Virus record (IMG/VR): IMGVR_UViG_3300017922_000001
Span: 1 to 35,446 of that record
Length of the DNA: 35,446 nt
Origin: a virus
Strand: one strand, 5' to 3'
The notes beneath the pieces were generated by a model. That model saw only the letters and a program-made list of their open reading frames with translations. It did not search any database and was not told the origin of the DNA. Position 1 is the stretch's first letter. Every line of letters starts with the position of its first letter. Shown here in pieces: positions 1 through 35,446 of the stretch. Position numbers and translations under genes: made by a program.

Positions 1-123
1 CTGGATAAGACGACCATCCAAGAGATAGCTCTTAAAAGTGGGATGGCCGATACAAAAGAAGAAATAACTAAAGCGATGGAGGCTCAAATATTACTCGATG
101 AGATTTATAAACAATCCGGTGAC
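1..123. repeat. Terminal direct repeat, left copy (circular overlap)
   Basis: This 123-base stretch is identical to the last 123 bases of the window. It lies inside the tape-measure gene, and the reading frame runs without a break from the right copy into the left copy. It is therefore best read as the overlap of a circular or circularly permuted genome cut open by assembly. A biological terminal repeat is not expected inside a structural gene. Confidence 0.95.
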
Positions 124-7094: not shown

Positions 7095-7427
7095 ATGGAT
7101 TTTGACATAGGAAATTTTATCGCAGGGCTAACGTTACTCGAGCTAGTGGTTGCTTTAATCGTTATTGAAGTTTTAGAGGTGGTATCGGGCCTTTTGAGGG
7201 CTTGGAAAAATAATATTCCTATTAAAGGAGCTATAACGAGAGAAAGCATAGTTAAAAAATTCGAGGGCTGGAAGTATATATTTGGCCTCATGGCTATATT
7301 TATTTATGTGGGCCAGCTCGAATTGGCAAAGGCGCTGCTCGGATTTGTATTATTGCCGGAGATAGTGTCTTTTGTAGAAAACTTTAAGAAAAGTATTACC
7401 GGAGAGGTGGAAAAATGGCAAGTTTAA
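7095..7427 (+). CDS. Holin
   Basis: A 110-residue protein with hydrophobic segments at about residues 8-35 (FIAGLTLLELVVALIVIEVLEVVSGLL) and 62-92 (YIFGLMAIFIYVG and ALLGFVLLPEIVSF). These flank a polar loop with WKNNIPIKG, and a charged tail follows. This fits the phage holin 4/toxin-secretion holin group of Gram-positive phages, which opens the membrane to let the lysin act. The AAGGAGGTG ribosome site is strong, and the 3' end overlaps the lysin gene by 13 bases, so the two are translationally coupled. Confidence 0.75.
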   Translation: MDFDIGNFIAGLTLLELVVALIVIEVLEVVSGLLRAWKNNIPIKGAITRESIVKKFEGWKYIFGLMAIFIYVGQLELAKALLGFVLLPEIVSFVENFKKSITGEVEKWQV

Positions 7428-8830
7428 CATACGCAGAATGGGTGGAAAAAATGAAGCAAGAAACACACAACGAACACAATATTGCAGAATGGCACCGGGC
7501 CGGGTATTTGGGGCAAGGTGTTAAAGTCTTAAATCTCGAGGGCTATTCGGGCCACGGCAAAACAACTTTTGATAATATAGTTAGAACTGCGCCGGAGGCA
7601 AAAGTCGATTGGTGTCAAATAGGATTCGGCTTAAAGGCCGATAAGCTCTATCATTTTAACGCGGAAACTGCGGACCGGACCTTCACACTGGAAGACCTCG
7701 AGGATTTTGCGGACTTTTTAAAAGGTTATGATATTATAACTGTTAGCAAATCCAGCAGCTACGGCCCGGAACTCGAAGAAGTATTTTCGGAAAGCGGAGC
7801 GATTTTGATTTCAAGTGCCGGAAATGATGATTTTGACGGAGTAACGGGCCGCTTTAAGGATATAGGCTTTTCAATCGGGGCTGTTGAAATGAGGGCCGGA
7901 GGCGTCCACCGCGAAAGCTATTCAGCGGTTGGAGAGAAACTCGACTTTGTTTGCTTTCATTATGAGCGCGAGGGAACGAGTTTTAGCGCGCCGACATTTG
8001 CGGGTATTGACGCAATAGTTTTAAGCAAATATCCGACAGTGAACAAATACGAAATGTATGAGGTTATGAAGTCAATTTGTGTGGACCTCGGAGAACAAGG
8101 ATTTGACGAGCATTTCGGGCACGGTTTGCCGGTATTGCCGGAGGACGTAAAAATTGAATTACTAGAAAAAGAGCCGGAGCCGCAGCCCGAGCCTGAGAAA
8201 GTTAAACAATGGACTTGCAGGATTTTACATAACAGCAGCAACTTTGATTGGCAGCCCGGAGACACAATCAAAAAGGGCGAAAAGGTTTGCAGAATGGGCT
8301 CAACGGGTACGGATTTAATTCACGCTCATATTGACGCAGTTAAAGGCTTGGTTAAACAGTATAGTTTAATGGATATTGAGAGAGACTTATATATGCCGTT
8401 AAAGGCAAAAATAGAGTCATTGATAGTATGGGGCCTATTTCAGTACAAACCCGTAATAACATGCGAATATTTGTGTGAAAACTACATGCAGGACCAAAAG
8501 GTCAGTTATAATCACTGGGCTATTGACGTGGTACCTGAGAATAGAAAAATCACGGCCGAGAATTACGACATATATTGGCCGCTAGACACACCGGCGGTAG
8601 TAATGAATGTGGGAACATATTCAGACGGTACAAAATATATAGTGTTAGGAGTTGACGAAACAATGGAATATAAAGACGTTCCGAAAGATAAATGGTATTA
8701 TGAAGAAGTTGATTGGGTATCAAACGAAGGTTTAATGACAGGATATAAAGACGGAACTTTCAGGCCTGATGAGCCTATAACTCGGGCTGAGGTAGCTCAG
8801 ATTTTATACAACTTGAAACATCAGCAATAA
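7415..8830 (+). CDS. Modular lysin: subtilisin-like (S8) + M23-like + SLH domain
   Basis: A 471-residue protein. Residues about 30-245 are S8-like: SAGN at 134-137 (oxyanion Asn), GTSFSAP at 187-193 (Ser189) and GHG at 46-48 (His47). The usual Asp position reads LNLEG, suggesting Glu42, and the Asp-His spacing is very short. A Pro/Glu linker (about 252-262) follows. Residues 268-415 carry M23 peptidase signatures in reversed order: GDTIKKGEKVCRMGSTG with HAHID (303-307) first, NHWAIDVVP (366-374) second. Residues about 418-466 are an SLH repeat (DVPKDKWYYEEVDW...GYKDGTFRPDEPITRAEVAQILY) that would anchor the enzyme to secondary wall polymer. No signal peptide is seen, so export through the holin is expected. 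Whether each catalytic module is active is unknown. Confidence 0.8.
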   Translation: MASLTYAEWVEKMKQETHNEHNIAEWHRAGYLGQGVKVLNLEGYSGHGKTTFDNIVRTAPEAKVDWCQIGFGLKADKLYHFNAETADRTFTLEDLEDFADFLKGYDIITVSKSSSYGPELEEVFSESGAILISSAGNDDFDGVTGRFKDIGFSIGAVEMRAGGVHRESYSAVGEKLDFVCFHYEREGTSFSAPTFAGIDAIVLSKYPTVNKYEMYEVMKSICVDLGEQGFDEHFGHGLPVLPEDVKIELLEKEPEPQPEPEKVKQWTCRILHNSSNFDWQPGDTIKKGEKVCRMGSTGTDLIHAHIDAVKGLVKQYSLMDIERDLYMPLKAKIESLIVWGLFQYKPVITCEYLCENYMQDQKVSYNHWAIDVVPENRKITAENYDIYWPLDTPAVVMNVGTYSDGTKYIVLGVDETMEYKDVPKDKWYYEEVDWVSNEGLMTGYKDGTFRPDEPITRAEVAQILYNLKHQQ

Positions 8831-23856: not shown

Positions 23857-24282
23857 AGAAAAAAAACGTTATTTATGAAAGCGTTTTCCAGGGGGGTAAA
23901 AGGGGGTTGATTATTTATCATTATTCAAAGTCGATGATGGAGGCACTGGGGCAACCGGGCTTTCAGAGGCGAAAAAAAACGTTATTTATCAGCGGTATAT
24001 AGTAAATAAATAATGAATAACGAAAAAAGTAAAAGGGGTACCTCTGGAGGTGTTTTACCCTCCAAAAACGTTATTATCATTATTTATGGTATCTTAGATA
24101 CTGGTATCACTGTAACCTAATAAATAACGAACGATATTATTTCATTATTTATGGTAATTAGGCTATTCAGGACATAGAATATTTTACAAATACCTAAAAA
24201 GTCTCGCGACATCGACAGTCTTTTCAAACCACTCACACAAAACATTAAAATAATCCCTATATATAAGAGAGATTTTGCAGGT
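23857..24282. promoter_or_regulatory. Gene-free control region 2 with repeat array
   Basis: No credible gene. At least seven copies of the 10-base word NRTTATTTAY or its complement occur between about 23868 and 24165 (for example CGTTATTTAT twice, GATTATTTAT, CATTATTTAT twice, ATAAATAACG), in both orientations. Other elements are a palindromic GTATCTTAGATAC, an inverted copy of the block at 8945-8967 (24209-24231), and AATAATCCCTATATATAAG (24249-24267), which differs by one base from 9128-9146. It may be a replication origin or an operator array for switching from early to late transcription. Confidence 0.72.
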
Positions 24283-24358: not shown

Positions 24359-24934
24359 ATGGATATAGTATATAAAAAGATTAGCGACTTGGCCGAGTAC
24401 CCAAATAATCCACGGGTTAACGATGAGGCCGTAGAAAAAGTTAAAAGAAGTATTGAAGAGTTTGGATTTAAAGTACCGATGGTAGTAGATAGTAAAGGCG
24501 TTATAATAGCCGGACATACCAGGTTAAAAGCGTCAAAAGAACTTGGCCTGGATGAAGTACCTTGTATTATTGCAGATGATTTAACGGAGGCCCAGGCTAA
24601 AGCCTTTAGACTTGCAGATAATAAAACTAATGAGTTTGCAAGATGGGATTACGACATGTTATCTAAAGAGCTTAAAGATCTTAACATGGAAGATTTTAGT
24701 ATGAGCGATTTTGGATTTGTGGATTTCACTATTGACTTTGAGCCATTTGATGGAGACGGAGACGGCGGAGGCAGTCAGATTGGAAACGGCACGAAGTTAA
24801 GAATAGTTATCGGGGCTTGCATATTAGACCTCGAGGATATTCCAAGCGAAATATATATGAAAACTAAAGAACTTGACAAAGAGCACGTTCGCGAAGTCAT
24901 GACAGACTTATTGACGAAAGGAGAATTATTTTGA
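24359..24934 (+). CDS. ParB/Srx-fold protein (stand-alone)
   Basis: 191 residues. Residues 5-100 are ParB/Srx-like: ISDLAEYPNNPR, VKRSIEEFGFKVPMVV, IIAGHTRLKASKELG (box II, 51-55 AGHTR) and DDLTEAQAKAFRLADNKTNE. This form is usually the N-terminal half of phage ParB-DNA methylase fusions placed before the terminase. Here no methylase follows. Instead there is a Gly/Asp linker (about 137-148) and a small C-terminal domain (KLRIVIGACILDLEDIPSEI) I do not recognise. Possible activities in this fold are CTP/ATP hydrolysis, nucleotidyl or phosphoryl transfer, or nicking. The stop overlaps the radical SAM gene, so they are probably co-translated. Confidence 0.82.
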   Translation: MDIVYKKISDLAEYPNNPRVNDEAVEKVKRSIEEFGFKVPMVVDSKGVIIAGHTRLKASKELGLDEVPCIIADDLTEAQAKAFRLADNKTNEFARWDYDMLSKELKDLNMEDFSMSDFGFVDFTIDFEPFDGDGDGGGSQIGNGTKLRIVIGACILDLEDIPSEIYMKTKELDKEHVREVMTDLLTKGELF

Positions 24935-26163
24935 GATATTATTACCCTCAGTTTAAAAACTCAAAGACCAGATATTTAACTTTCACGGTAGTCAGTAAGG
25001 TTTTAAGATTATACGGCCATGAAATAGTAAACACTGAGAAAGAGGCCGACGCGATTTTATTCTCAGGATGTGACGTCCTTGACATTAAGGATTTAAGACG
25101 ACTCAGGAAAGAGACGAGTAAGCCCTTAATCTTTGGTGGAGCGTACTCATTTAACTATTGGAGCGCGAAACTTTACAGCGACGCTGTATGGGTAGGAGAA
25201 ATATTCGAGTTTGCTAAGCTCAAATCATTGGCCGAGATATACGACAGCAAGCACAGCTTTACCGGAGACGATGAGGAAGGCTTAACGGCCAGCACCTTAA
25301 TAGAATGGGATAAGGTACCGATAGCTCAGGTTACAAAAACACACTGTTATTATTGGGGAGGCGTTGGATGTAAAAATAAATGTAACTTTTGCTATACGAG
25401 TTGGACCCATAAACATATTGAGAATACGAGGCAGAATATTCGCCAGGCCCAGGAAATAGCAAAGAGAAATAAAATCCACTTAATGACAGTATCAAACGAA
25501 TACAGCTATGAGGATGGAAATAAGACTAAAGACGTCCTAATTAAAGATTTTATAAAAATGCCAATAAAAGCCAGTTTAGTAAGGTGTGGAATCGAGTTTG
25601 CAACGGAGGACGTTCGAAAAAAAATGAGTAAGCCTATCACTCGAGAAGACATTTCAAAACTCGTTCAAAAGATAAGTAAAGATAATATCATGGTTAGATT
25701 ATTTCACGTTACCGGATATGAGCCGTTAGAAGATTGGCATAGATATATAAAAGAGCTCGGAGATTTATTATTCAAATATCCAAATAAGCGCATGATTCAT
25801 CTAATGTTTAACAACCTACAATATCAAAACTATACGCCGTTATATGGAGAAAGGTTTAATATTAATCCAGATAACTATATTGATATAAAACAAACAAAGG
25901 CATGGTTTGATGAATTGAGACAGCAAACGCCACATGTATTAGTAGGAGCACCGAGCCCATTTCAACACGTAGTTTGCAGAATGGGAATAGAGTTAGCAAC
26001 GGACCAGGGGCAGGCTGAGTTCTTTTTTAATATGTTAAATCATAAAAAGGATTATACGAAACAGCAGGCATACGACGCACTCATGGAATCCAATGTTTTA
26101 CATACCGAGCGTAGAAAGCTAAATCTTAAAAATGGTAAAATAACTAAAGTTAACACGCTTTAA
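24931..26163 (+). CDS. Radical SAM enzyme with N-terminal B12-binding-like region
   Basis: 410 residues from a TTG start set eight bases after AAAGGAG and overlapping the upstream stop. The [4Fe-4S] motif is C147-KNK-C151-NF-C154, canonical CxxxCxxC. Upstream, residues 15-105 show a Rossmann-like pattern (VVSKVLRLYGHEIV, ADAILFSGCDV, KPLIFGGAYSF, DAVWVGE) as in cobalamin-binding radical SAM enzymes, though no DxHxxG is seen. Later parts (RCGIEFATEDVRKKMSKPIT, MVRLFHVTGYEPLEDWHRYI) fit the Elp3/B12 radical SAM barrel. Substrate unknown. Its place between ParB-like and TerS, where a DNA methylase often sits, suggests nucleic-acid modification as a hypothesis. Confidence 0.88.
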   Translation: MRYYYPQFKNSKTRYLTFTVVSKVLRLYGHEIVNTEKEADAILFSGCDVLDIKDLRRLRKETSKPLIFGGAYSFNYWSAKLYSDAVWVGEIFEFAKLKSLAEIYDSKHSFTGDDEEGLTASTLIEWDKVPIAQVTKTHCYYWGGVGCKNKCNFCYTSWTHKHIENTRQNIRQAQEIAKRNKIHLMTVSNEYSYEDGNKTKDVLIKDFIKMPIKASLVRCGIEFATEDVRKKMSKPITREDISKLVQKISKDNIMVRLFHVTGYEPLEDWHRYIKELGDLLFKYPNKRMIHLMFNNLQYQNYTPLYGERFNINPDNYIDIKQTKAWFDELRQQTPHVLVGAPSPFQHVVCRMGIELATDQGQAEFFFNMLNHKKDYTKQQAYDALMESNVLHTERRKLNLKNGKITKVNTL

Positions 26164-26189
26164 TCGTTTAGTTAAAAGGAGGTGTGAAT

Positions 26190-26582
26190 ATGGGAAAGAC
26201 CTATAGAAAGAAACCTAACGGGAAGAATGACACGGGCAGGCCGAAAGTTGAGATTAAAAAGGACCTATTTGAAAATCTATGTAAAATACAATGTACTAAA
26301 GAGGAAATTTGCGAAGTCATGGAAGTTGACGAGAAAACAATAACGAGATTTTGCAAAGAAGAATACGGAAAGCAGTTTAAAGAGGTTTGGAAAATAAAAA
26401 GCGCGCCAGGAAAGGCAAGCCTTAGGAGGTGGCAATTTAAAGTAGCTGAGGGAGGAAACTCGACAATGCTCGTTTGGCTCGGAAAGCAATATCTCGGACA
26501 GACAGATAAGCAAGACCTTAATCATGAGGGCACAGCTTTAAATATCAATATGAACTGGGTTGATTCAAATGACGGAGATTAA
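26190..26582 (+). CDS. Terminase small subunit
   Basis: About 130 residues; ATG 26190 is preferred over GTG 26184, which is too close to AAAGGAGG. The basic N-terminus is KTYRKKPNGKNDTGRPK. An HTH follows (FENLCKIQCTKEEICEVMEV, DEKTITRFCKEEYG) to recognise the packaging site. The C-terminal part (SLRRWQFKVAEGGNSTMLVWLGKQYLGQTDK) is typical of TerS in Firmicutes phages. It is followed by TerL with a 14-base overlap. Confidence 0.88.
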   Translation: MGKTYRKKPNGKNDTGRPKVEIKKDLFENLCKIQCTKEEICEVMEVDEKTITRFCKEEYGKQFKEVWKIKSAPGKASLRRWQFKVAEGGNSTMLVWLGKQYLGQTDKQDLNHEGTALNINMNWVDSNDGD

Positions 26583-27768
26583 CGTTAATATGCAAATGAA
26601 CAAAGTTTACAAAGAGGCTTTAATCAGCGACGCCAGGTATAAGGTTTTATACGGAGGCGCCGGAAGTGGAAAGTCAAAAGTCGTTGCTCAAAAAATAGTC
26701 TTAGACATGCTCAGCGATGGACGTTATAAAATATTATGCGTCAGGAAAACTAATAAAAGTATAAAGGAATCTGTATTCGCTGAGATTAAGGAGGTTATAT
26801 CGGAGAACGATCTTGACGCTTTCTTTAAAATAAATAAAACTAATATGAGCTTTACTTGCTTAAACGGGGCCAGGGTTATAACATCCGGCCTGGATGATGT
26901 CGAGAAACTAAAATCGATAAAAGGTATTAATAGGATTTGGGCCGAAGAGGCCAGTGAGATAAGCGAAAAGGATTTCAGACAGTTAAACCTCAGGATGAGA
27001 GGAAAGAATAAACTCGGCTATCAAATATATTTAACATTCAATCCGATATCAGAATTACACTGGTTAAAGAGGGTATTTGTGGATGTGGGTCTCGATGACA
27101 GTTACGTTTTGAAGACGACATACGAAGATAATGCTTTCTTGGATGAGGCTTATATTAAAACATTAATAGCTTTGAAAGAGCAGGATTACCAATATTATAA
27201 AATATATTGTCTCGGAGAATGGGGCAGTCTTGGAAACTTAGTTTACAGCAACTGGGAAAAAGCAGACCTCAGTAAAGAAGTTGAAAGATTTGATAATTTC
27301 TATAATGGTTTAGACTGGGGCTTTAGCTCAGACCCGACAGCATTTGTAAGAGCTCACTTGGACCAGGCCAGGAAGAAAATTTATATAGTTCAAGATTTTG
27401 CGCATAGGGAAACACATAACGAGGACATTGCAAAAGAGGTTAAAGACATAATCGGGCGCGAAATAGTTACATGCGACAGCTCGGAGCCTCGAAGTATTGC
27501 CGAGGTGTGCAAATATGGCGTTAATGCTATTGGAGCTAAAAAAGGCAAAGGCAGTATAGAGCACGGGATTAAATGGTTACAGAAATACAGAATTATAGTC
27601 GATGAAAATTGCGTCGATACTATAAATGAGTTATCAACTTATAAATATAGAGAAGATAAAGACGGGAACGTATTACCAAAGCCATTGGACAAAAACAATC
27701 ACATTATGGACGCTTTAAGATACGCATTTGAAGAAGAAATGGTGGACTCAGGCCAGTGGGGTTGGTAG
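26569..27768 (+). CDS. Terminase large subunit
   Basis: About 399 residues from ATG 26569; a TTG nine bases earlier is possible. The ATPase has Walker A GGAGSGKS (29-36) and Walker B-like IWAEEAS, with the motor motif LTFNP. The RNase-H-like nuclease shows LDWGFSSDPTA, VTCDSSEPRS and HIMDALRYAFEE. It fits the PBSX/SPP1-type terminase group, which packages by a headful mechanism. Together with the circular map this supports circularly permuted virion DNA. Confidence 0.93.
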   Translation: MTEINVNMQMNKVYKEALISDARYKVLYGGAGSGKSKVVAQKIVLDMLSDGRYKILCVRKTNKSIKESVFAEIKEVISENDLDAFFKINKTNMSFTCLNGARVITSGLDDVEKLKSIKGINRIWAEEASEISEKDFRQLNLRMRGKNKLGYQIYLTFNPISELHWLKRVFVDVGLDDSYVLKTTYEDNAFLDEAYIKTLIALKEQDYQYYKIYCLGEWGSLGNLVYSNWEKADLSKEVERFDNFYNGLDWGFSSDPTAFVRAHLDQARKKIYIVQDFAHRETHNEDIAKEVKDIIGREIVTCDSSEPRSIAEVCKYGVNAIGAKKGKGSIEHGIKWLQKYRIIVDENCVDTINELSTYKYREDKDGNVLPKPLDKNNHIMDALRYAFEEEMVDSGQWGW

Positions 27769-29115: not shown

Positions 29116-29946
29116 ATGATTATAAAACACGCCCAAGCCGAGCAGGAAACGAGAGCTCTTGAAAGGGCTTATATTAAAAAGGTTGAAAAAGCCTATCAGG
29201 CCAGTTTGGACGAAATCGAGAGAAAGCTTGAAAGGTATTATTCAAAGTTTGGCGTCGAAGGATCCTTGACTCAGGAAAGTATGGCGAAAATGACGACCTA
29301 CCACAAGCGCCGAGTGACAAGACTCGAGAGCATGAGGTTAACAATCGGAGACGAGTTGAATTCTTTAAATAGAGGAAAACCTCAACAGATGAGGTCCTTT
29401 CTAACGGATGTGTATAATACGAACTTTCTATTAACGGCTAAAAACATCGATACTTTTACAAATATGAATACGTCTTTTAGTTTGCCAAGTAGGCAAGTTA
29501 TTTATAATTCGACGATAAGGCCAATGACTAAAATAGCTCTGGAGGATAATTCCCGAGCTATTAAAATGGCTATAAGGCGAGATTTAACTCGGGGCGTAGT
29601 TCAGGGCTCATCTATTCAAGAGACGGCCAAAAATATAGAGAAGTCTCTTAAAGATAATGCTAACAGTGCTATACAGATAGCACGGACCGAAACGACCGGG
29701 ATTAAAGGCATGGCCCGTGTGGATGTTCAAGCCGAGGCCCGAGATAAGTACGGCATAGAGCTTAAAAAGGTTTGGAGCGCGTCACCTTGGGGCAATACTC
29801 GAGAATCCCACGCCAACCTGGACGGCACAGCTATTGAAGTTGAAGAGGTTTTTAGCAACGGTTTAATGTACCCAGGCGACCAAAACGGAGAGGCAAGCGA
29901 AGTAGTTAATTGTAGGTGTACTTTATATACGGAGATTATTGACTAA
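29116..29946 (+). CDS. Minor head protein (SPP1 gp7-like head morphogenesis)
   Basis: 276 residues. The C-terminal part has the Mu gpF/SPP1 gp7 signature: ARTETTGIKGMARVDVQAEA, KVWSASPWGNTRESHANLDG, MYPGDQNGEASEVVNCRC. The N-terminal half is helical. These proteins sit inside the capsid near the portal and affect DNA ejection. TAGGAGGCG precedes the ATG. Confidence 0.9.
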   Translation: MIIKHAQAEQETRALERAYIKKVEKAYQASLDEIERKLERYYSKFGVEGSLTQESMAKMTTYHKRRVTRLESMRLTIGDELNSLNRGKPQQMRSFLTDVYNTNFLLTAKNIDTFTNMNTSFSLPSRQVIYNSTIRPMTKIALEDNSRAIKMAIRRDLTRGVVQGSSIQETAKNIEKSLKDNANSAIQIARTETTGIKGMARVDVQAEARDKYGIELKKVWSASPWGNTRESHANLDGTAIEVEEVFSNGLMYPGDQNGEASEVVNCRCTLYTEIID

Positions 29947-29950
29947 ATAT

Positions 29951-29979
29951 TTGATATTATTCGTATTTTATAGTAAAAT
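29951..29979 (+). promoter_or_regulatory. Possible promoter before scaffold and coat genes
   Basis: TTGATA-17 bases-TAAAAT in the 111-base gap upstream of the scaffold gene. Both boxes have one or two deviations. A separate promoter for the highly expressed scaffold and coat genes would make sense. No other element is seen in the gap except AAGGAGG for the next gene. Confidence 0.45.
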
Positions 29980-30057
29980 AAAGCAAAGTCAGTTGGAGAA
30001 CTATAAACTCAAATCCAATCAGAGTAACACTCTATAAAAGTTAAGGAGGATTAATCA

Positions 30058-30654
30058 GTGGAATTTTTAAAAGATATCATAAAGGAATATGTGGAAGACG
30101 AGAAAAAGGTTGACGAAGTTGTAGACAAAATCAATAAAAAGGCGCCGGAATATTACGTACCAAAGGCAAAGTTTAATGATTTGACAGAAGAGCATAAGTT
30201 AACCAAACAGCAACTTGACGAGCAAAAGAAAACAGTCGAGGAATTGGGAAAGAAAGCCGAGAGTCTTGAAGAGTATGAGAGTCAATTAGAAGAATTGAGA
30301 AAAAAGAATAAAGAGATTGAAGAAAAGACGGCCGAGGATATTAAGAAGATATCCACAAAAACTCAGATGAAAGAGTTATTGTTTGGAAAAGCCCACCAGG
30401 ACGCAATCGATTTATTAGTTGACAGATATTCTGAGAGTGCCGAGCTTGGAGACGATAAAACTTTAAAGAACGCCGAGGATTTACTTAAAAAGATGAAAGA
30501 GGAAAAATCAGGCCTATTCATCGAGACTAAAGAAAATAGCAAAGATAAGGACGAACATAAAAACAAAGGTGGAGAAAAGAGCCCGGCTGAAATGGACGAA
30601 TCGGAATATGCCCAATACTTCAATGAGAGAGAAAGTAAACGAGTGGATTTATAA
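30058..30654 (+). CDS. Capsid scaffolding protein (DUF4355/Gp20-like)
   Basis: 198 residues from a GTG after AAGGAGGATTAATCA. Long charged coiled coil (EEHKLTKQQLDEQKKTVEEL, EEYESQLEELRKKNKEIEEK), then a compact helical C-terminus. This composition and the position directly before the coat gene are those of phage scaffolds, which guide coat assembly and then leave. Confidence 0.85.
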   Translation: MEFLKDIIKEYVEDEKKVDEVVDKINKKAPEYYVPKAKFNDLTEEHKLTKQQLDEQKKTVEELGKKAESLEEYESQLEELRKKNKEIEEKTAEDIKKISTKTQMKELLFGKAHQDAIDLLVDRYSESAELGDDKTLKNAEDLLKKMKEEKSGLFIETKENSKDKDEHKNKGGEKSPAEMDESEYAQYFNERESKRVDL

Positions 30655-30673
30655 TATAAAGGAGATGGAATAA

Positions 30674-31813
30674 ATGCCAAACGAATATTTGACGTTAGAC
30701 CAGATAGCAAAAGAAAGTTTAATGAGGCTGAGAAATAATCTCGTATTCGCTAACTTAGTGCATAGAGATTACAGCGATGAATACGCGTCCTATGGAGATA
30801 AAATCCAGGTTAAAAAGCCGGCAACTTTTGAGGCAAAGGATTTTGTGGCCGATGGTAGCACAAGTAAGCAGGACATAAAAGAGGGCAAGGTTGATGTTTA
30901 CCTGAACAAAATTGCAGATATCACAGTAGAGGTATCAGCTAAGGAATTGACTTTAAATATCCAGGACTTTGGAGCTCAGGTTGCAGAAGGAGCAATGCAG
31001 GCCATAGCTCAAAAAGTTGACGCAGATTTAGCAAATCAGTATAAAACTATTCCGTATTATGCAGGAGACGCAGGCACCGAGCCGGCAACTTTATCGGACC
31101 TTGCAAATGCGAGAAAGACTTTAAATAAAAATAAAGCGCCGATGATGAATAGAAGATTAGTATTGAGCCCGGACGCAGAAAGTAATTTACTGGTACTTGA
31201 CTCAGTGGTTAATGCTGAAAAATCAGGAACTACTCAGGCATTAAGAGAGGCAAGTTTAGGTAAATTGATGGGATTCAACACTTTTATGAGTCAGAATATT
31301 GTATCTCATACAAAGGGAACTTTAGCAGTATCAGGAACAGATGACATCGTAGTTAATGCTGAGGTTGCAGTTGGAGCCAGTGAGATTGTACTTGGAACAT
31401 CCAGCACAGATACTTTAACTGGAACGGTTTTAGTTGGAGATATCTTAAACATCGACGGAAATAAATATGTAGCGACAAAAGAGGCAACAGCGAATGCCGA
31501 CGCAACTTTAACTGTCAAGATAGCACCGGCAACAGAAGTTGTATTGCCGGCCGACACAGTTGTAACTATAAGCGCGTCAAATGTAGGAAACTTAGCATTC
31601 CACAGAAACGCGTTCGCATTAGTAAATAGACCTATGGCATTGCCAATGGGAGGCGCTGAGGGCGCAGTTGCAAACTTTGAGGGATTGAGTATAAGAGTAA
31701 CAAGAGATTATACAATGTCCAGTAAATCTAATGAGATATCCTTTGATATTTTATATGGAATCAAAACTCTTGAAGAAAAACTTGCTACAAGAGCATGGGG
31801 AACTTCGGGATAA
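30674..31813 (+). CDS. Major capsid protein (P22 coat-like)
   Basis: 379 residues. The N-terminus MPNEYLTLDQIAKESLMRLR, 'LVHRDYSDEYASYGDKIQVKKP' strands and RLVLSPDAESNLL resemble the P22-type coat family (HK97 fold). An inserted beta-rich segment at about 215-300 (TDDIVVNAEVAVGASEIVLG, GDILNIDGNKYVATKEATAN) is probably an accessory Ig-like or I-domain. The C-terminal part (LALVNRPMALPMGG-like, FEGLSIRVTRDYTM) is typical. It is followed by a clear terminator hairpin. Confidence 0.88.
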   Translation: MPNEYLTLDQIAKESLMRLRNNLVFANLVHRDYSDEYASYGDKIQVKKPATFEAKDFVADGSTSKQDIKEGKVDVYLNKIADITVEVSAKELTLNIQDFGAQVAEGAMQAIAQKVDADLANQYKTIPYYAGDAGTEPATLSDLANARKTLNKNKAPMMNRRLVLSPDAESNLLVLDSVVNAEKSGTTQALREASLGKLMGFNTFMSQNIVSHTKGTLAVSGTDDIVVNAEVAVGASEIVLGTSSTDTLTGTVLVGDILNIDGNKYVATKEATANADATLTVKIAPATEVVLPADTVVTISASNVGNLAFHRNAFALVNRPMALPMGGAEGAVANFEGLSIRVTRDYTMSSKSNEISFDILYGIKTLEEKLATRAWGTSG

Positions 31814-31822
31814 TAAAAATAT

Positions 31823-31857
31823 AGAGGTAGTTTTCTACCTCTTTTATTCTTTTTTAT
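31823..31857 (+). terminator. Terminator after the major capsid gene
   Basis: AGAGGTAG-TTTT-CTACCTCT, eight perfect base pairs with a 4-base loop, followed by TTTATTCTTTTTT. It probably lowers transcription of the tail genes relative to coat. No promoter is obvious right after it, so it must be leaky. Confidence 0.9.
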
Positions 31858-31874
31858 AAAAGGAGGATGAGCAA

Positions 31875-32177
31875 ATGTTTAAATGGAATTGCCCGAGGTG
31901 TGGCTTTTATACTAATAGTGAAGAAATGAAAAGACTACATACACATGAGGCAAAGCATGAGTGCGACGCGAGAATTAAAGAGCTCGAAACTTTGAGAAAT
32001 CAGGACGGCGAAGTAATTGACGAAAATACAGAAGTGCCTAACGAGGCCGAGGTTGAAGAATTGACCGTCGACGATATGACTAAAAAGGAAATAATGGCAG
32101 AATTGGATAAAAAAGAAATCGAGTACAACAGCAAAGATCTTAAAGCTGAGCTATTTGATTTGTTAGTAGGTGACTAA
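31875..32177 (+). CDS. Small head-region protein: zinc finger plus Rho-N/HeH-like domain
   Basis: 100 residues. The N-terminus has C6-PR-C9 and H-x-H...H-x-C (CPRCGFYTN, HTHEAKHEC), a likely zinc finger. The C-terminal 35 residues (TVDDMTKKEIMAELDKKEIE, KDLKAELFDLLVGD) look like the Rho-N/HeH/LEM-type helix-extension-helix module found in many small head-tail region proteins. Between them lies an acidic linker. AAAGGAGG precedes the ATG. Confidence 0.65.
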   Translation: MFKWNCPRCGFYTNSEEMKRLHTHEAKHECDARIKELETLRNQDGEVIDENTEVPNEAEVEELTVDDMTKKEIMAELDKKEIEYNSKDLKAELFDLLVGD

Positions 32178-32179
32178 AA

Positions 32180-32650
32180 TTGATAGAAGAAGTTTTACGA
32201 GACATTAATAATTTCTTTGTGAGCTTTAGAGACGAGGGCCACAACATAGAATCTAAAAAAGTAACGGTTGATAATCCTGATAAATTTTTGGTAGGCCAGT
32301 ATATCCTGATTAAAGGCTCGAGGTTGAGCGATGGCGTTTATGAAATTAGCAATATAGCCCAGGGCCAGTTGCTTTTAACCGAGGAAGTCGAAGGGGATTT
32401 AGAAGATGAAACCGACGACTTTTATGTTTACGGATTAAAGATTCCTAAAAACGTAATTCATATACACGATGACATAATGACATTTTATAACGATAGCGTT
32501 AAAGGGATTGACAGCGAAAGCCTCGGAGATTATTCAGTTAAATATACATCGGACGGCAAAGGAGACACAACCTGGAAAACAGCTTTTGCGTCAAGGTTAA
32601 ATCCTTACAGACAAATGTATCTCGATTTAGATTCTAATTTAGATTTGTAG
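32180..32650 (+). CDS. Head-tail connector protein (gp15-like)
   Basis: 156 residues from a TTG that follows the upstream stop by two bases, with TAGGTG as weak ribosome site. Position after coat and 'MIEEVLRDINNFFVSFRDEG' plus a 'LGDYSVKYTSDGKGDTTWKT' C-terminus correspond to the adaptor ring bound under the portal in SPP1-type phages. Assignment rests mostly on order. Confidence 0.65.
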   Translation: MIEEVLRDINNFFVSFRDEGHNIESKKVTVDNPDKFLVGQYILIKGSRLSDGVYEISNIAQGQLLLTEEVEGDLEDETDDFYVYGLKIPKNVIHIHDDIMTFYNDSVKGIDSESLGDYSVKYTSDGKGDTTWKTAFASRLNPYRQMYLDLDSNLDL

Positions 32651-32662
32651 GTGGTTAGTTAA

Positions 32663-32992
32663 ATGAATATAGAAAAATTCTATGAGGCAGGCATTGAAAT
32701 ATTAGAGCCCACAAAGACACAGAATGATTTTGGCGAGTATGAGGTAGCCTATACCGTCAAAAAGGCTATAATGGGTAGAATTCGTCCTCTTAGTGGAAAT
32801 GAGAGGTATGTCTCAGGGGCAAGGCACCAAGAAAGTACCCATAAACTATATTGTAGCTTTGATGAGTACGGCGAAATGGATGTGGACCACAAAATCAGAG
32901 GGAACGACGGTGTTGAATATGACATCATTTTTATAGGAAACCCGATGAATTTTGATAGATGGCTCCAAGTCGATTTGGAAGTGATAAGATGA
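32663..32992 (+). CDS. Head closure/head-tail joining protein
   Basis: 109 residues, beta-rich: GIEILEPTKTQNDFGEYEVA, IMGRIRPLSGNERYVSGARH, GNDGVEYDIIFIGNPMNFDR. This matches the general pattern of the PF05521 head-tail adaptor family (SPP1 gp16, phi29-like stoppers), which plugs the connector after packaging. Its TGA stop overlaps the next ATG. Confidence 0.82.
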   Translation: MNIEKFYEAGIEILEPTKTQNDFGEYEVAYTVKKAIMGRIRPLSGNERYVSGARHQESTHKLYCSFDEYGEMDVDHKIRGNDGVEYDIIFIGNPMNFDRWLQVDLEVIR

Positions 32993-33345
32993 AAAAGACA
33001 AAAGTAACTATTATAGATAAAACGGGCCAGGCTAAAAAGGAATTAAAGAGTGAATTATGGCTTGCAATGAAAAAGTCAGCGATGGAGGTTGAGGCCAAAT
33101 CAATTAGGATTGTACCGGTAGACACGGGGAATCTTAAAGGCAGTATAACGCACAGAGTGACGCCAGATTTTGGAAGAATAAGAGGATTCGTCGGAACTAA
33201 TGTCGAATATGCGCCGTATATAGAATTTGGACACTCTAAAAAAGCACCTCAGGGATTTTTAAGACCGGCCCTATACATGAGCCGTGAGAGAATAAATAAA
33301 TTCCATAGGCAGGCCTTAAAGAATTTGGAGAGGAAGTTTAAATGA
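32989..33345 (+). CDS. Tail completion protein (HK97 gp10-like)
   Basis: 118 residues. The ATG overlapping the upstream stop is chosen, since the protein naturally begins MKKTKVTIIDKTGQ; an in-frame ATG ten codons earlier lies within the upstream gene. Signature: AMEVEAKSIRIVPVDTGNLK, VEYAPYIEFGHSKKAPQGFL, typical of the HK97 gp10 family. It works at the head-tail joint. Confidence 0.85.
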   Translation: MKKTKVTIIDKTGQAKKELKSELWLAMKKSAMEVEAKSIRIVPVDTGNLKGSITHRVTPDFGRIRGFVGTNVEYAPYIEFGHSKKAPQGFLRPALYMSRERINKFHRQALKNLERKFK

Positions 33346-33704
33346 TAGGAAAAGTTATAACCAATTTATTGAACGCCTCAGGGATTGAAGTTATCCCTCA
33401 TGGACATGAGAAAGTTTATCCCGTTGCAACCTATAATAAAATAGCAAATAGTCAAGGATATACCCACCAGGGAAAAGACGGAATCGGTCGAGAGATATTT
33501 CAAATATCATGTTGGGCCGAGACTTTTGCCAGTGCTGAAATATTAAGGGATAACGTTAAAGACATCCTGGATAGTTATACCGGCACGGTGGAGGGCGTTA
33601 ATGTAAAGACAGTTTTTAATGTTAACGAAAACGACCTTTATGAAAATGAAACTGGGATTTATCAAAACATTGTAGATTTTGAATTTATATTTGAGGAGGA
33701 ATAA
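33342..33704 (+). CDS. Tail terminator/completion protein (gp17-like)
   Basis: 120 residues. Position and pattern (VYPVATYNKIANSQGYTHQG, REIFQISCWAETFASAEILR, ETGIYQNIVDFEFIFEEE) fit the DUF3168/SPP1 gp17 family that caps the tail tube at the head end. The start overlaps the upstream stop (ATGA), and GAGAGGAAG provides the ribosome site. Confidence 0.78.
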   Translation: MIGKVITNLLNASGIEVIPHGHEKVYPVATYNKIANSQGYTHQGKDGIGREIFQISCWAETFASAEILRDNVKDILDSYTGTVEGVNVKTVFNVNENDLYENETGIYQNIVDFEFIFEEE

Positions 33705-33707
33705 TTA

Positions 33708-34112
33708 ATGAGTGGAAAATTTGGTTTTGGAACAACTTTTAGTGTTACAATAGCAGACGTTTTGGAGGCTATTGCAGAATTAACAAGTATCAGTGGCCCG
33801 GAAATTTCTGTTAATGAGATTGACGTAACCTCACATGACAGCCCGGACGGCTATATGGAATTCTTGCCGGGATTAAAAGACGGTGGCAGTGTGACGATTG
33901 AGGGGAACTTTGAGAATGACGCGTCGCAACTTCACTTTCAAACATTGATTGACAACGGGGTAGCTGTGCCGATGGAAATTGCATTCCCAAATGCTTTGGC
34001 AACTTGGACATTTGACGGATTTGTGACAGCATTTTCAACCGACGCACCTCATGACGACAAGATTGATTTCACAGCTACTATCAAAGTAACTGGGAAACCG
34101 GTATTAGCTTAG
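33708..34112 (+). CDS. Major tail protein
   Basis: 134 residues: FGFGTTFSVTIADVLEAIAE, GPEISVNEIDVTSHDSPDGY, ATWTFDGFVTAFSTDAPHDD, KIDFTATIKVTGKP. This is the standard pattern of the small tail-tube protein of Gram-positive siphoviruses. Highly expressed genes of this type often have strong ribosome sites; GAGGAGGAAT precedes the ATG. Confidence 0.88.
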   Translation: MSGKFGFGTTFSVTIADVLEAIAELTSISGPEISVNEIDVTSHDSPDGYMEFLPGLKDGGSVTIEGNFENDASQLHFQTLIDNGVAVPMEIAFPNALATWTFDGFVTAFSTDAPHDDKIDFTATIKVTGKPVLA

Positions 34113-34122
34113 GAGTGATTAA

Positions 34123-34452
34123 ATGAGAGAATATACATTCGAAGTAAAGGATAAGACATATACGTTAAGATATGATTTCAACGCTATATGCGATATAGAA
34201 GAAGAGGCCCAACTCGGAATACCTGAGTTGATGAGTCAAAAGAGAATCGGAATGAACACGGCCAGGATTGTAATTTGGGGAGGATTGGCAAGGCAAAAAG
34301 GTACCATGACAAAACAGCAAGTCGGAGAACTCATCCAGGAATATATAAACGAGGGGAACGACTTTACAAAGTTGATGCAAGATTCGATGGAGCTCCTTGC
34401 TGAATCGATTTCCAAAGAGGAAACGAGTGTATCAACAAAAAAAAAGAAGTAG
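34123..34452 (+). CDS. Tail assembly chaperone G
   Basis: 109 residues ending STKKKK. It starts MREYTFEVKDKTYTLRYDFN and has ICDIEEEAQLGIPELM, typical of tail assembly chaperones that bind the tape measure protein. Its last codons lie on a run of nine A's that forms a slippery site for making the longer G-T product. Confidence 0.85.
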   Translation: MREYTFEVKDKTYTLRYDFNAICDIEEEAQLGIPELMSQKRIGMNTARIVIWGGLARQKGTMTKQQVGELIQEYINEGNDFTKLMQDSMELLAESISKEETSVSTKKKK

Positions 34453-34817
34453 ACGGCAAGGATGAAAGTCCTTGCTTTCTTAAAATAGCAAAGCAAGCTG
34501 AGGAAGTGGCTTATTACTTTGGTATAATGCCCGACGAGTTTTGGGGTATGATACCCAGGGAATTATATAAATATCTCGACATGCAAGTTGATAGAGACAA
34601 AACAAAGCGCGAGGCCGACCAAAGAAACACGGCTTTAATATGTGCTACAATAGCTAATTTCTCAATGACAAAACCTAAAAATAAGAAATATAAAATAGAT
34701 GATTTTATCCCTAAAGAGAAAAAGGAAATGACCGAAGAAGATATGTTAAAAGAAGTTGAAAAGATTAACAGACTTTTAGGGGGTAAAGATCTTAGGCAGG
34801 AAGAAGGTGTTAAATAA
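34123..34817 (+). CDS. Tail assembly chaperone GT by -1 ribosomal frameshift
   Basis: The -1 frame entered at the A-run is open without interruption from about 34437 to the stop at 34815-34817. It adds about 123 residues (EVDGKDESPCFLKIAKQAEE, VAYYFGIMPDEFWGMIPREL, ... RLLGGKDLRQEEGVK) to the 108 codons of G, for about 231 residues. The T part has no ribosome site of its own; GTG 34506 is only the first start codon in that frame. GT/G ratio control is a classic feature of long-tailed phages. The stop overlaps the tape-measure ATG (TAATG). Confidence 0.88.
34440..34475 (+). promoter_or_regulatory. Programmed -1 frameshift signal
   Basis: Slippery heptamer A AAA AAG (34440-34446) in register with the G frame, nine bases before a hairpin GCAAGGA-TGAAAG-TCCTTGC (34456-34475; seven perfect pairs, an extra G-T possible). 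The stop of G (TAG, 34450-34452) lies in the spacer. All parts of the standard signal are present. Confidence 0.92.
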
Positions 34818-35446
34818 TGAGTGTCGGTAAAATGTCAGTTGAAATAAACTCGGACGAATCGGGCGCATTGCGTAGTTTAGACCGTGTGAGCGCAAAAATG
34901 AAAAAGGTCGGCGAAAAAATGCAGGTATTTGGCAAAAAAATGACAACTATGGTAACTTTGCCAGTAGCCGGAGCATTCGCCGGAATGGCTAAAAGTGCGA
35001 TGGAGCTCGAGGCAACGGAGGCAAAATTTTATACAGTATTTGGTAATATGAGCGATGACGCCGACGCATTTTTAGATAAATTTAGAGAATTGACGCCGGC
35101 CACAAAGGCTGAGTCAAGAAGTTTAGCGTCAAGCATTCAGGACTTAATGGTACCGATGGGAATTGCAAGAGACGAGGCGACTAAAATGACCGGGGAATTT
35201 ATGCACGTAACCGGGGCTTTGGCGAACTTTAACAGTGGTACTCACAGCGCCGAGGATGTAGCAATAGCAATGCAAAGTGCTTTGACTGGTATGTATAGAC
35301 CTTTAAAAGGTTTAGGCGTTCAACTGGATAAGACGACCATCCAAGAGATAGCTCTTAAAAGTGGGATGGCCGATACAAAAGAAGAAATAACTAAAGCGAT
35401 GGAGGCTCAAATATTACTCGATGAGATTTATAAACAATCCGGTGAC
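34817..35446 (+). CDS. Tail tape measure protein, N-terminal part (continues at 1-1431)
   Basis: The ATG overlaps the chaperone stop. 210 codons are present here, of which the last 41 are the repeated copy of bases 1-123. The N-terminus has a short coiled region (VSAKMKKVGEKMQVFGKKMT), then hydrophobic LPVAGAFAGMAKSAMELEAT and the phage TMP pattern LMVPMGIARDEATKMTGEF, ...ALTGMYRPLKGLGVQLDKTT. Together with the left part the full protein is about 645 residues. Confidence 0.93.
   Translation, partial: MSVGKMSVEINSDESGALRSLDRVSAKMKKVGEKMQVFGKKMTTMVTLPVAGAFAGMAKSAMELEATEAKFYTVFGNMSDDADAFLDKFRELTPATKAESRSLASSIQDLMVPMGIARDEATKMTGEFMHVTGALANFNSGTHSAEDVAIAMQSALTGMYRPLKGLGVQLDKTTIQEIALKSGMADTKEEITKAMEAQILLDEIYKQSGD
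35324..35446. repeat. Terminal direct repeat, right copy (circular overlap)
   Basis: Exact copy of the first 123 bases. It should be counted once; the unit genome is 35,323 bp. Confidence 0.95.

Follow-up and report, generated by a model that had tools for sequence, protein, structure and literature searches.

What does a stand-alone ParB-fold gene do when its neighbor, just ahead of the DNA-packaging genes of a phage, is not a DNA methylase but a radical SAM enzyme? The question arises from IMG/VR virus record IMGVR_UViG_3300017922_000001, analyzed over its whole 35,446-nucleotide stretch (here, the window). The original prediction proposed that the two genes replace the usual ParB-methylase and could be a DNA modification or protection module acting near packaging, with a chemistry other than methyl transfer and with the ParB C-terminal part as a possible partner-docking piece. 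The observation itself holds: the pair is present as described. The interpretation is supported only in part, as set out below.

The locus and its conservation

The features are collected in the table. The ParB-fold and radical SAM genes overlap by 4 nt (TTGA) and directly precede TerS and TerL. The window has an exact 123-bp repeat at its two ends, and its last and first open frames overlap in the same tape-measure-like sequence; it therefore looks like a complete, circularly permuted siphovirus genome of about 35.3 kb, although IMG/VR lists it as linear. The nearest cultured TerL is that of Thermoanaerobacterium phage THSA-485A (47%).

Features of the ParB-radical SAM locus, in coordinates of the window
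Feature	Position	Strand	Basis
ParB-fold (ParB/Srx, ParB-CTPase fold) gene, ATG start, 191 aa, proposed adaptor	24359..24934	+	PF02195 5.3e-9, 36.5 bits vs cut-off 26.3; PHROG 620 1.2e-56; AF2 model nearest to ParB-CDP 7bnk (VIA Z 13.4, 89 aa, rmsd 1.6)
AGHTR nucleotide-binding motif of the ParB fold (residues 51-55)	24509..24523	+	Sequence; G52, H53 and R55 invariant in 14 aligned ParBs
ParB C-terminal tail (beta hairpin plus two helices), proposed docking part	24785..24931	+	Model; follows a low-confidence linker at residues 122-142
Radical SAM enzyme, TTG start, 410 aa: Rossmann N-domain (about residues 1-105), radical SAM barrel, C-terminal helical part	24931..26163	+	PF04055 6.4e-5, 23.6 bits, below cut-off of 29.5; AlphaFold2 model
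CxxxCxxC iron-sulphur/AdoMet motif (C147, C151, C154), family signature GCx3CxFC[YF]TSWT	25369..25392	+	Three Cys invariant in 24 aligned sequences
Terminase small subunit (probable)	26184..26582	+	PHROG 309 7e-5 (weak), PHROG 606 9e-4
Terminase large subunit (PBSX type)	26560..27768	+	PF04466 2.4e-59; TIGR01547 4e-67

To ask whether the pairing is more than chance, relatives of the radical SAM gene were sought without using ParB or terminase. A degenerate motif scan and two profile scans of IMG/VR, together with one locus from a scan of genome contigs, gave 36 distinct records encoding a family member: the window, 34 further IMG/VR contigs, and one Kiritimatiellae MAG contig (individual records are given L numbers here). 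Some are near-copies (L048/L049, L050/L051, L058/L059, L061/L062, L074/L075), and two (L063, L065) begin inside the enzyme and lack the upstream sequence needed. In 33 of the remaining 34, a ParB-fold gene is the neighbor, usually upstream and overlapping: 28 of 30 junctions examined overlap by 4 to 86 nt (L052 included), and L019, L025 and L037 overlap too. In L050/L051 one 80-aa frame lies between the genes, in L053 ParB follows the enzyme instead, and L058/L059 have two ParB genes in tandem. L052 has a gene in the right place with a GHHR motif but only a weak profile match (hhalign E 0.009, probability 4%) and is counted as not confirmed. One of the two genes is frame-broken in three contigs (the enzyme in L047 and L037, the ParB in L056). 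Both genes are under purifying selection between close relatives, with dN 0.04-0.06 against dS 0.55-0.68 for the enzyme and dN 0.04-0.05 against dS 0.39-0.53 for ParB (dN/dS about 0.07-0.11).

Twenty downstream long ORFs, chosen by eye from 20 records, were compared with Pfam: 12 of 20 pass a TerL family cut-off, the ORF of L044 matches a T7-type terminase domain below its cut-off, and 7 match nothing. The families differ (PF04466; PF03237/PF17289; PF03354/PF20441; PF05876/PF20454), so the module is tied to the place and not to one terminase lineage. Repeats upstream of the pair were considered as a conserved target site for this ParB and rejected, since in L044 and L046 the preceding gene ends 2 nt before ParB and leaves no such region.

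The original prediction would have been undermined had homologues of the enzyme been found mostly outside this context; this was examined and did not occur, within the limits of the searches. The scan of genome contigs, with narrow patterns, returned at least 1 confirmed relative from 80 candidate stretches, which does not show absence from cells. In 194 genomes of that relative's phylum, 20 matched at E <= 0.001, but only the one known locus scored over 65 bits (456 bits); the rest look like general B12-type radical SAM proteins. No cultured phage record was found to carry a family member: tblastn of the window enzyme and of members L055, L050 and L053 against 50,697 phage records gave no match, and L061 gave one weak hit that belongs to another radical SAM protein, with no ParB match in the stretch examined. 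A first scan of viral contigs with the single protein also found nothing, while a scan with TerL brought 17 loci, used only as a side set.

The predicted enzyme and its ParB-fold partner

Sequence libraries see only a weak radical SAM match in the enzyme, and the best NCBIfam hit, TIGR00089 MiaB/RimO, is far below its cut-off (E 1.9e-4). The AlphaFold2 model (mean pLDDT 93.1, pTM 0.90) is nonetheless plainly a radical SAM enzyme with an N-terminal Rossmann domain. An alignment of 24 sequences, from which L027/L047 (frameshifted enzyme) were left out, keeps C147, C151, C154, D84, G144, G146, T156, N189, G220, E222, R229, K234, F258, T302 and P303 in every member. The closest structure is MgmA (9ccb; Foldseek E 2.1e-14; VIA Z 23.4 over 339 residues, rmsd 3.4), followed by MiaB (Z 18.8, 311 residues, rmsd 3.5), AprD4 (17.9), RimO (17.7), CysS (17.2) and TsrM (16.4), and the family profile hits MgmA at 7e-7. 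The domain arrangement is thus that of MgmA, an archaeal cobalamin-dependent C-methylase of a methyl-coenzyme M reductase glutamine (PMC11796369), although identity in the VIA alignment is 13% and MgmA has no known ParB partner. In the profile alignment an MgmA residue discussed in that work falls on the C47 column of the phage family, if a 20-residue tag is assumed (our inference). S45 (S or T), G69-G70 and G89, at strand ends, are largely retained, which suits a bound ligand but does not prove cobalamin; AprD4, for one, is not known to use it.

The MiaB/RimO methylthiotransferases carry three N-terminal cysteines for an auxiliary cluster. No conserved Cys is found in the N-domain of the phage family: in the window enzyme only C47 is present, and it occurs mainly in the core clade and is lost even in its member L045. 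These enzymes also have a C-terminal TRAM domain; no TRAM match was seen up to E 1 in the Pfam search of the phage enzyme, and the structural alignments to MiaB stop at residue 336.

In the ParB, residues 1-91 or so form a ParB-CTPase fold with the conserved GxxR nucleotide motif. The protein is not a canonical partition ParB with the HTH and dimer domain layout: TIGR00180 scores 39.2 bits against a cut-off of 58.45, over residues 7-91 only. A tail profile built from 8 core-clade ParBs finds those 8 and none of 10 phage ParBs with other or unknown partners; other clades have their own tails. Over 20 loci (22 prepared, with the near-copies L054 and L057 dropped), tail similarity follows enzyme similarity (Spearman 0.48, Mantel p 0.0005), while N-domain similarity does not (0.00, p 0.46). 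L061 has an N-domain like that of the window (0.66) but a tail and enzyme like those of L064 (0.52 and 0.67); L045 and L046 have N-domains like that of L064 (0.68 and 0.59; 100/100 support) but core-type tails and enzymes (enzyme clade 100/100). The tail thus behaves like a partner-specific docking piece, as the original prediction suggested, but its DNA abuts the enzyme gene, so plain recombination inside ParB could give this pattern without docking, and L069 is an exception, with a different tail beside a related enzyme.

On a ParB N-domain tree of 30 rows, the radical SAM label needs at least 8 changes and is never one group in 200 bootstrap trees, whereas the enzyme tree has supported clades; the enzyme is swapped on a shared adaptor. 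The ParB tree left out L039, L050, L052, L058, L074, L080, L054, L057, L103a and L111, which were long, hard to align, or near-copies.

Partners of related ParBs in other phages

The closest cultured match to this ParB, in Lactobacillus phage c5 (61% over residues 1-126), is followed by an overlapping TET-associated glycosyltransferase (TAGT; PF20691 4.5e-54) and then, after two small genes, by TerL. The same stand-alone ParB plus TAGT arrangement is found in Microbacterium phage DelaGarza, but these ParB tails are unrelated to that of the window. Of 532 matching records, 16 regions were examined, 13 taken by hand from a 40-row spread listing and 3 from the best hits, and thus not at random. 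The partner is TAGT in 2 (the second at PF20691 1.9e-17), Tet_JBP in 1 (PF12851 1.1e-29), a separate N6_N4 methylase in 1, a fused N6_N4 methylase in 5 (two followed by a C5 methylase), an annotated glycosyltransferase with a UDP-glucose dehydrogenase in 1 (after a 76-aa gene), a P-loop/ABC ATPase in 4 (one by annotation only, one after a further small gene), a DUF4417 fusion in 1, and none in 1. By Pfam, then, 9 of 16 have a DNA-base modifier, and ParB does not always mean one. Not all of these loci lie beside a terminase. The premise that a ParB-methylase is usual at this spot holds in part: the fused methylase is the commonest of several partner types.

Published work is consistent with this picture. 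ParB-methylase fusions are enriched in phages (PMC12704722), TAGT is a DNA glucosyltransferase in T6-like phages (PMC13216743), and many phage contigs with the DNA carboxymethyltransferase CmoX carry a ParBc protein (PMC12783734). The window pair differs from the ParB-methylase (ParB_N fused to N6_N4_Mtase; PHROG 498), which is often upstream of terminase in the late-gene order and whose N-domains, in methylase-annotated genes, give matches of about 54-61% identity, in having a separate radical SAM protein instead of the methylase domain and a different tail. It differs from CmoX/CmoY carboxymethylcytosine hypermodification in that the latter relies on a C5-methylase-type enzyme using Cx-SAM, and no radical SAM enzyme is mentioned in that paper. 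In Thermus phages Cumys/phiMa, a radical SAM gene has been proposed for an unknown DNA modification, but its partners are a DUF483 protein and another protein of unknown function, with no mention of ParB (PMC11437467). Leaving aside the most relevant older survey (Iyer et al. 2013, PMC3763556), none of the passages seen in literature searched for the pair or its setting describes a ParB-radical SAM pair (the papers above, PMC11796369, PMC5512222, PMC10853773 and PMC12373910).

Other modifiers were sought in the same records. N6_N4 methylase (PF01555) matches occur in 4 of 32 viral records, plus the bacterial MAG, so mutual exclusivity with a methylase holds for the slot and not for the genome. 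TAGT (PF20691) was found in 0 of 32 and C5 methylase (PF00145) in 2 of 32, so the enzyme does not look like a helper of those pathways. Many records are fragments, making absences outside the window weak, and a search for Tet_JBP that returned none also detected no control and is not evidence. The window has no PF01555, PF20691 or PF00145 match; if it marks its DNA, this enzyme is the only candidate seen.

Weighing the explanations

Our preferred reading, held with about even confidence, is a two-protein phage DNA-modification module. In this view the ParB-fold protein is an NTP-binding adaptor whose N-terminal domain, of the kind that accompanies DNA methylases, TAGT glycosyltransferases and TET/JBP oxygenases in other phages, brings its partner to phage DNA, while its tail docks that partner, here a radical SAM enzyme of the MgmA/MiaB-like type. 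The enzyme would reduce AdoMet at a [4Fe-4S] cluster held by C147/C151/C154 and, with the 5'-deoxyadenosyl radical, change an unreactive carbon of a DNA base before packaging, most likely by adding a one-carbon group (C-methylation, possibly with cobalamin in the Rossmann domain, or a similar carbon modification); the likely benefit is protection of virion DNA from host nucleases. The analysis establishes the pair, its conservation and selection, the fold, the family-restricted context, the partner-slot comparison, and the co-inheritance of tail and enzyme, whereas DNA as the substrate, docking, cobalamin binding, C-methylation as the product, and protection are inferences. The claim that the chemistry differs from methyl transfer is not supported, because the nearest structure is a methylase and radical C-methylation is as likely as anything else; action near packaging rests only on gene position.

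The main rival, though unlikely, is that the enzyme modifies a protein (terminase, capsid protein, or a host factor), with ParB as substrate carrier or as the substrate itself. MgmA acts on protein and has an open cleft for an extended peptide, and the disordered linker and tail of ParB could be a peptide substrate; however, the pair precedes at least four unrelated TerL family types, so no single terminase is a conserved target, and the same ParB accompanies known DNA modifiers elsewhere. It is also possible, but rather less likely, that a nucleotide or small molecule is the substrate (the phage dNTP pool, or a host signalling nucleotide), since the ParB fold binds CTP, ATP or GTP (PMC12704722), ParB/Srx-fold proteins can be kinases or NTPases, and SerK and sulfiredoxin are among the fold neighbors. 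Known pre-replication routes use several genes, and thymidine or deazaguanine hypermodification pathways have accessory genes (TS-like enzyme, aGPT, QueC/D/E); no such gene, and no kinase gene, was seen among 20 window proteins compared with PHROGs or 10 compared with Pfam, a scan that was not family by family and covered one translated ORF of 29116-35446. A defense or superinfection-exclusion cassette (ParB-fold nuclease plus radical SAM effector) parked at a terminase-side hot spot also seems unlikely: ParB-fold domains with nuclease activity are reported in conflict systems (PMC5512222), but the order ParB-enzyme-terminase, kept across very different phages (L053 apart), fits a late-infection role better, and ParBs in the same slot carry methylases. 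Least likely is a captured RNA-modifying enzyme of the MiaB/RimO kind, despite the fold and NCBIfam matches, given the missing cysteines, the clearly higher MgmA match, the ParB neighbor in 33 of 34 records, and the lack of any tRNA context seen.

The pair is a real, widespread, phage-borne module. It resembles the known ParB-plus-DNA-modifier arrangement but differs in its enzyme, which we place in no named family beyond the radical SAM superfamily. A broader reading, which remains tentative, is that phages use a general system of ParB adaptor plus exchangeable base-modifying enzyme at the terminase boundary, one widespread branch of which carries a radical SAM (possibly cobalamin-dependent) enzyme that writes a mark on an unreactive base carbon directly on phage DNA, with the tail as an interchangeable plug that decides which enzyme is loaded; the swapped pairs (L061; L045/L046) are ready-made material for exploring this role. 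If the preferred reading is right, it adds radical SAM chemistry to the enzymes that act directly on phage DNA and predicts an unknown nucleoside in many uncultured phages. It would also give the ParB-fold proteins beside phage DNA-modification genes, whose purpose is stated as unknown in print (PMC12783734), a testable role as a shared loading domain with an enzyme-specific tail.

Neighbors and partners of the ParB-fold gene

In several phages (regions L086, L104, and L103, and L100 by annotation), the partner beside this ParB is a P-loop/ABC-type ATPase rather than a known base modifier, a further partner type of unknown role. Among the records carrying the ParB-radical SAM pair, extra ParB-fold genes lie next to it in L042 and in L058/L059, while in L055 and L056 a second radical SAM-like gene of another kind (PF04055, 1.3e-5 in L055) lies upstream of the pair, at about 1.5 kb (L055) or 0.7 kb (L056). 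In a further record, L046, the terminase large subunit frame is 830 aa and, as judged by eye, looks interrupted by an intein-like insert soon after its ATP-binding motif.

A far clade of the enzyme family (L019, L025, and L037), with GCRNKC or GCRHKC followed by FC[FY]YSWTHK, also has an overlapping ParB upstream; in L025, a terminase follows. The ParB of this clade ends in a CPKCGFKWLE zinc-ribbon-like tail in L025 and L037.

Positions of the additional features
Record	Position	Feature
Window	1-123 and 35324-35446	Terminal repeat
Window	7415-8830	Subtilase-like/S-layer homology protein
Window	23867-24152	CRTTATTTAT cluster
L019	942-2974	Far-clade locus
L042	7163-7426	Mini ParB, 87 aa
L046	10338-12830	Terminase large subunit frame
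L055	4846-5817	Second radical SAM-like gene
L056	182-1153	Second radical SAM-like gene
L058	6234-7878	Two tandem ParB genes (also in L059)
L086	4498-5172	P-loop/ABC-type ATPase
L103	4571-5197	P-loop/ABC-type ATPase
L104	3989-4663	P-loop/ABC-type ATPase

Genome form, repeats, and likely host

The window has an exact 123-base terminal repeat inside the tape-measure gene, and the record looks like a complete circularly permuted genome although it is listed as linear. Six of the seven copies of CRTTATTTAT in the window lie, on both strands, within 286 bases just upstream of ParB (0.7 expected in the whole window); perhaps this is an origin, operator, or packaging site. A protein with subtilase-like and S-layer homology domains, encoded after a holin-like gene, points to a host with an S-layer, probably Gram-positive.
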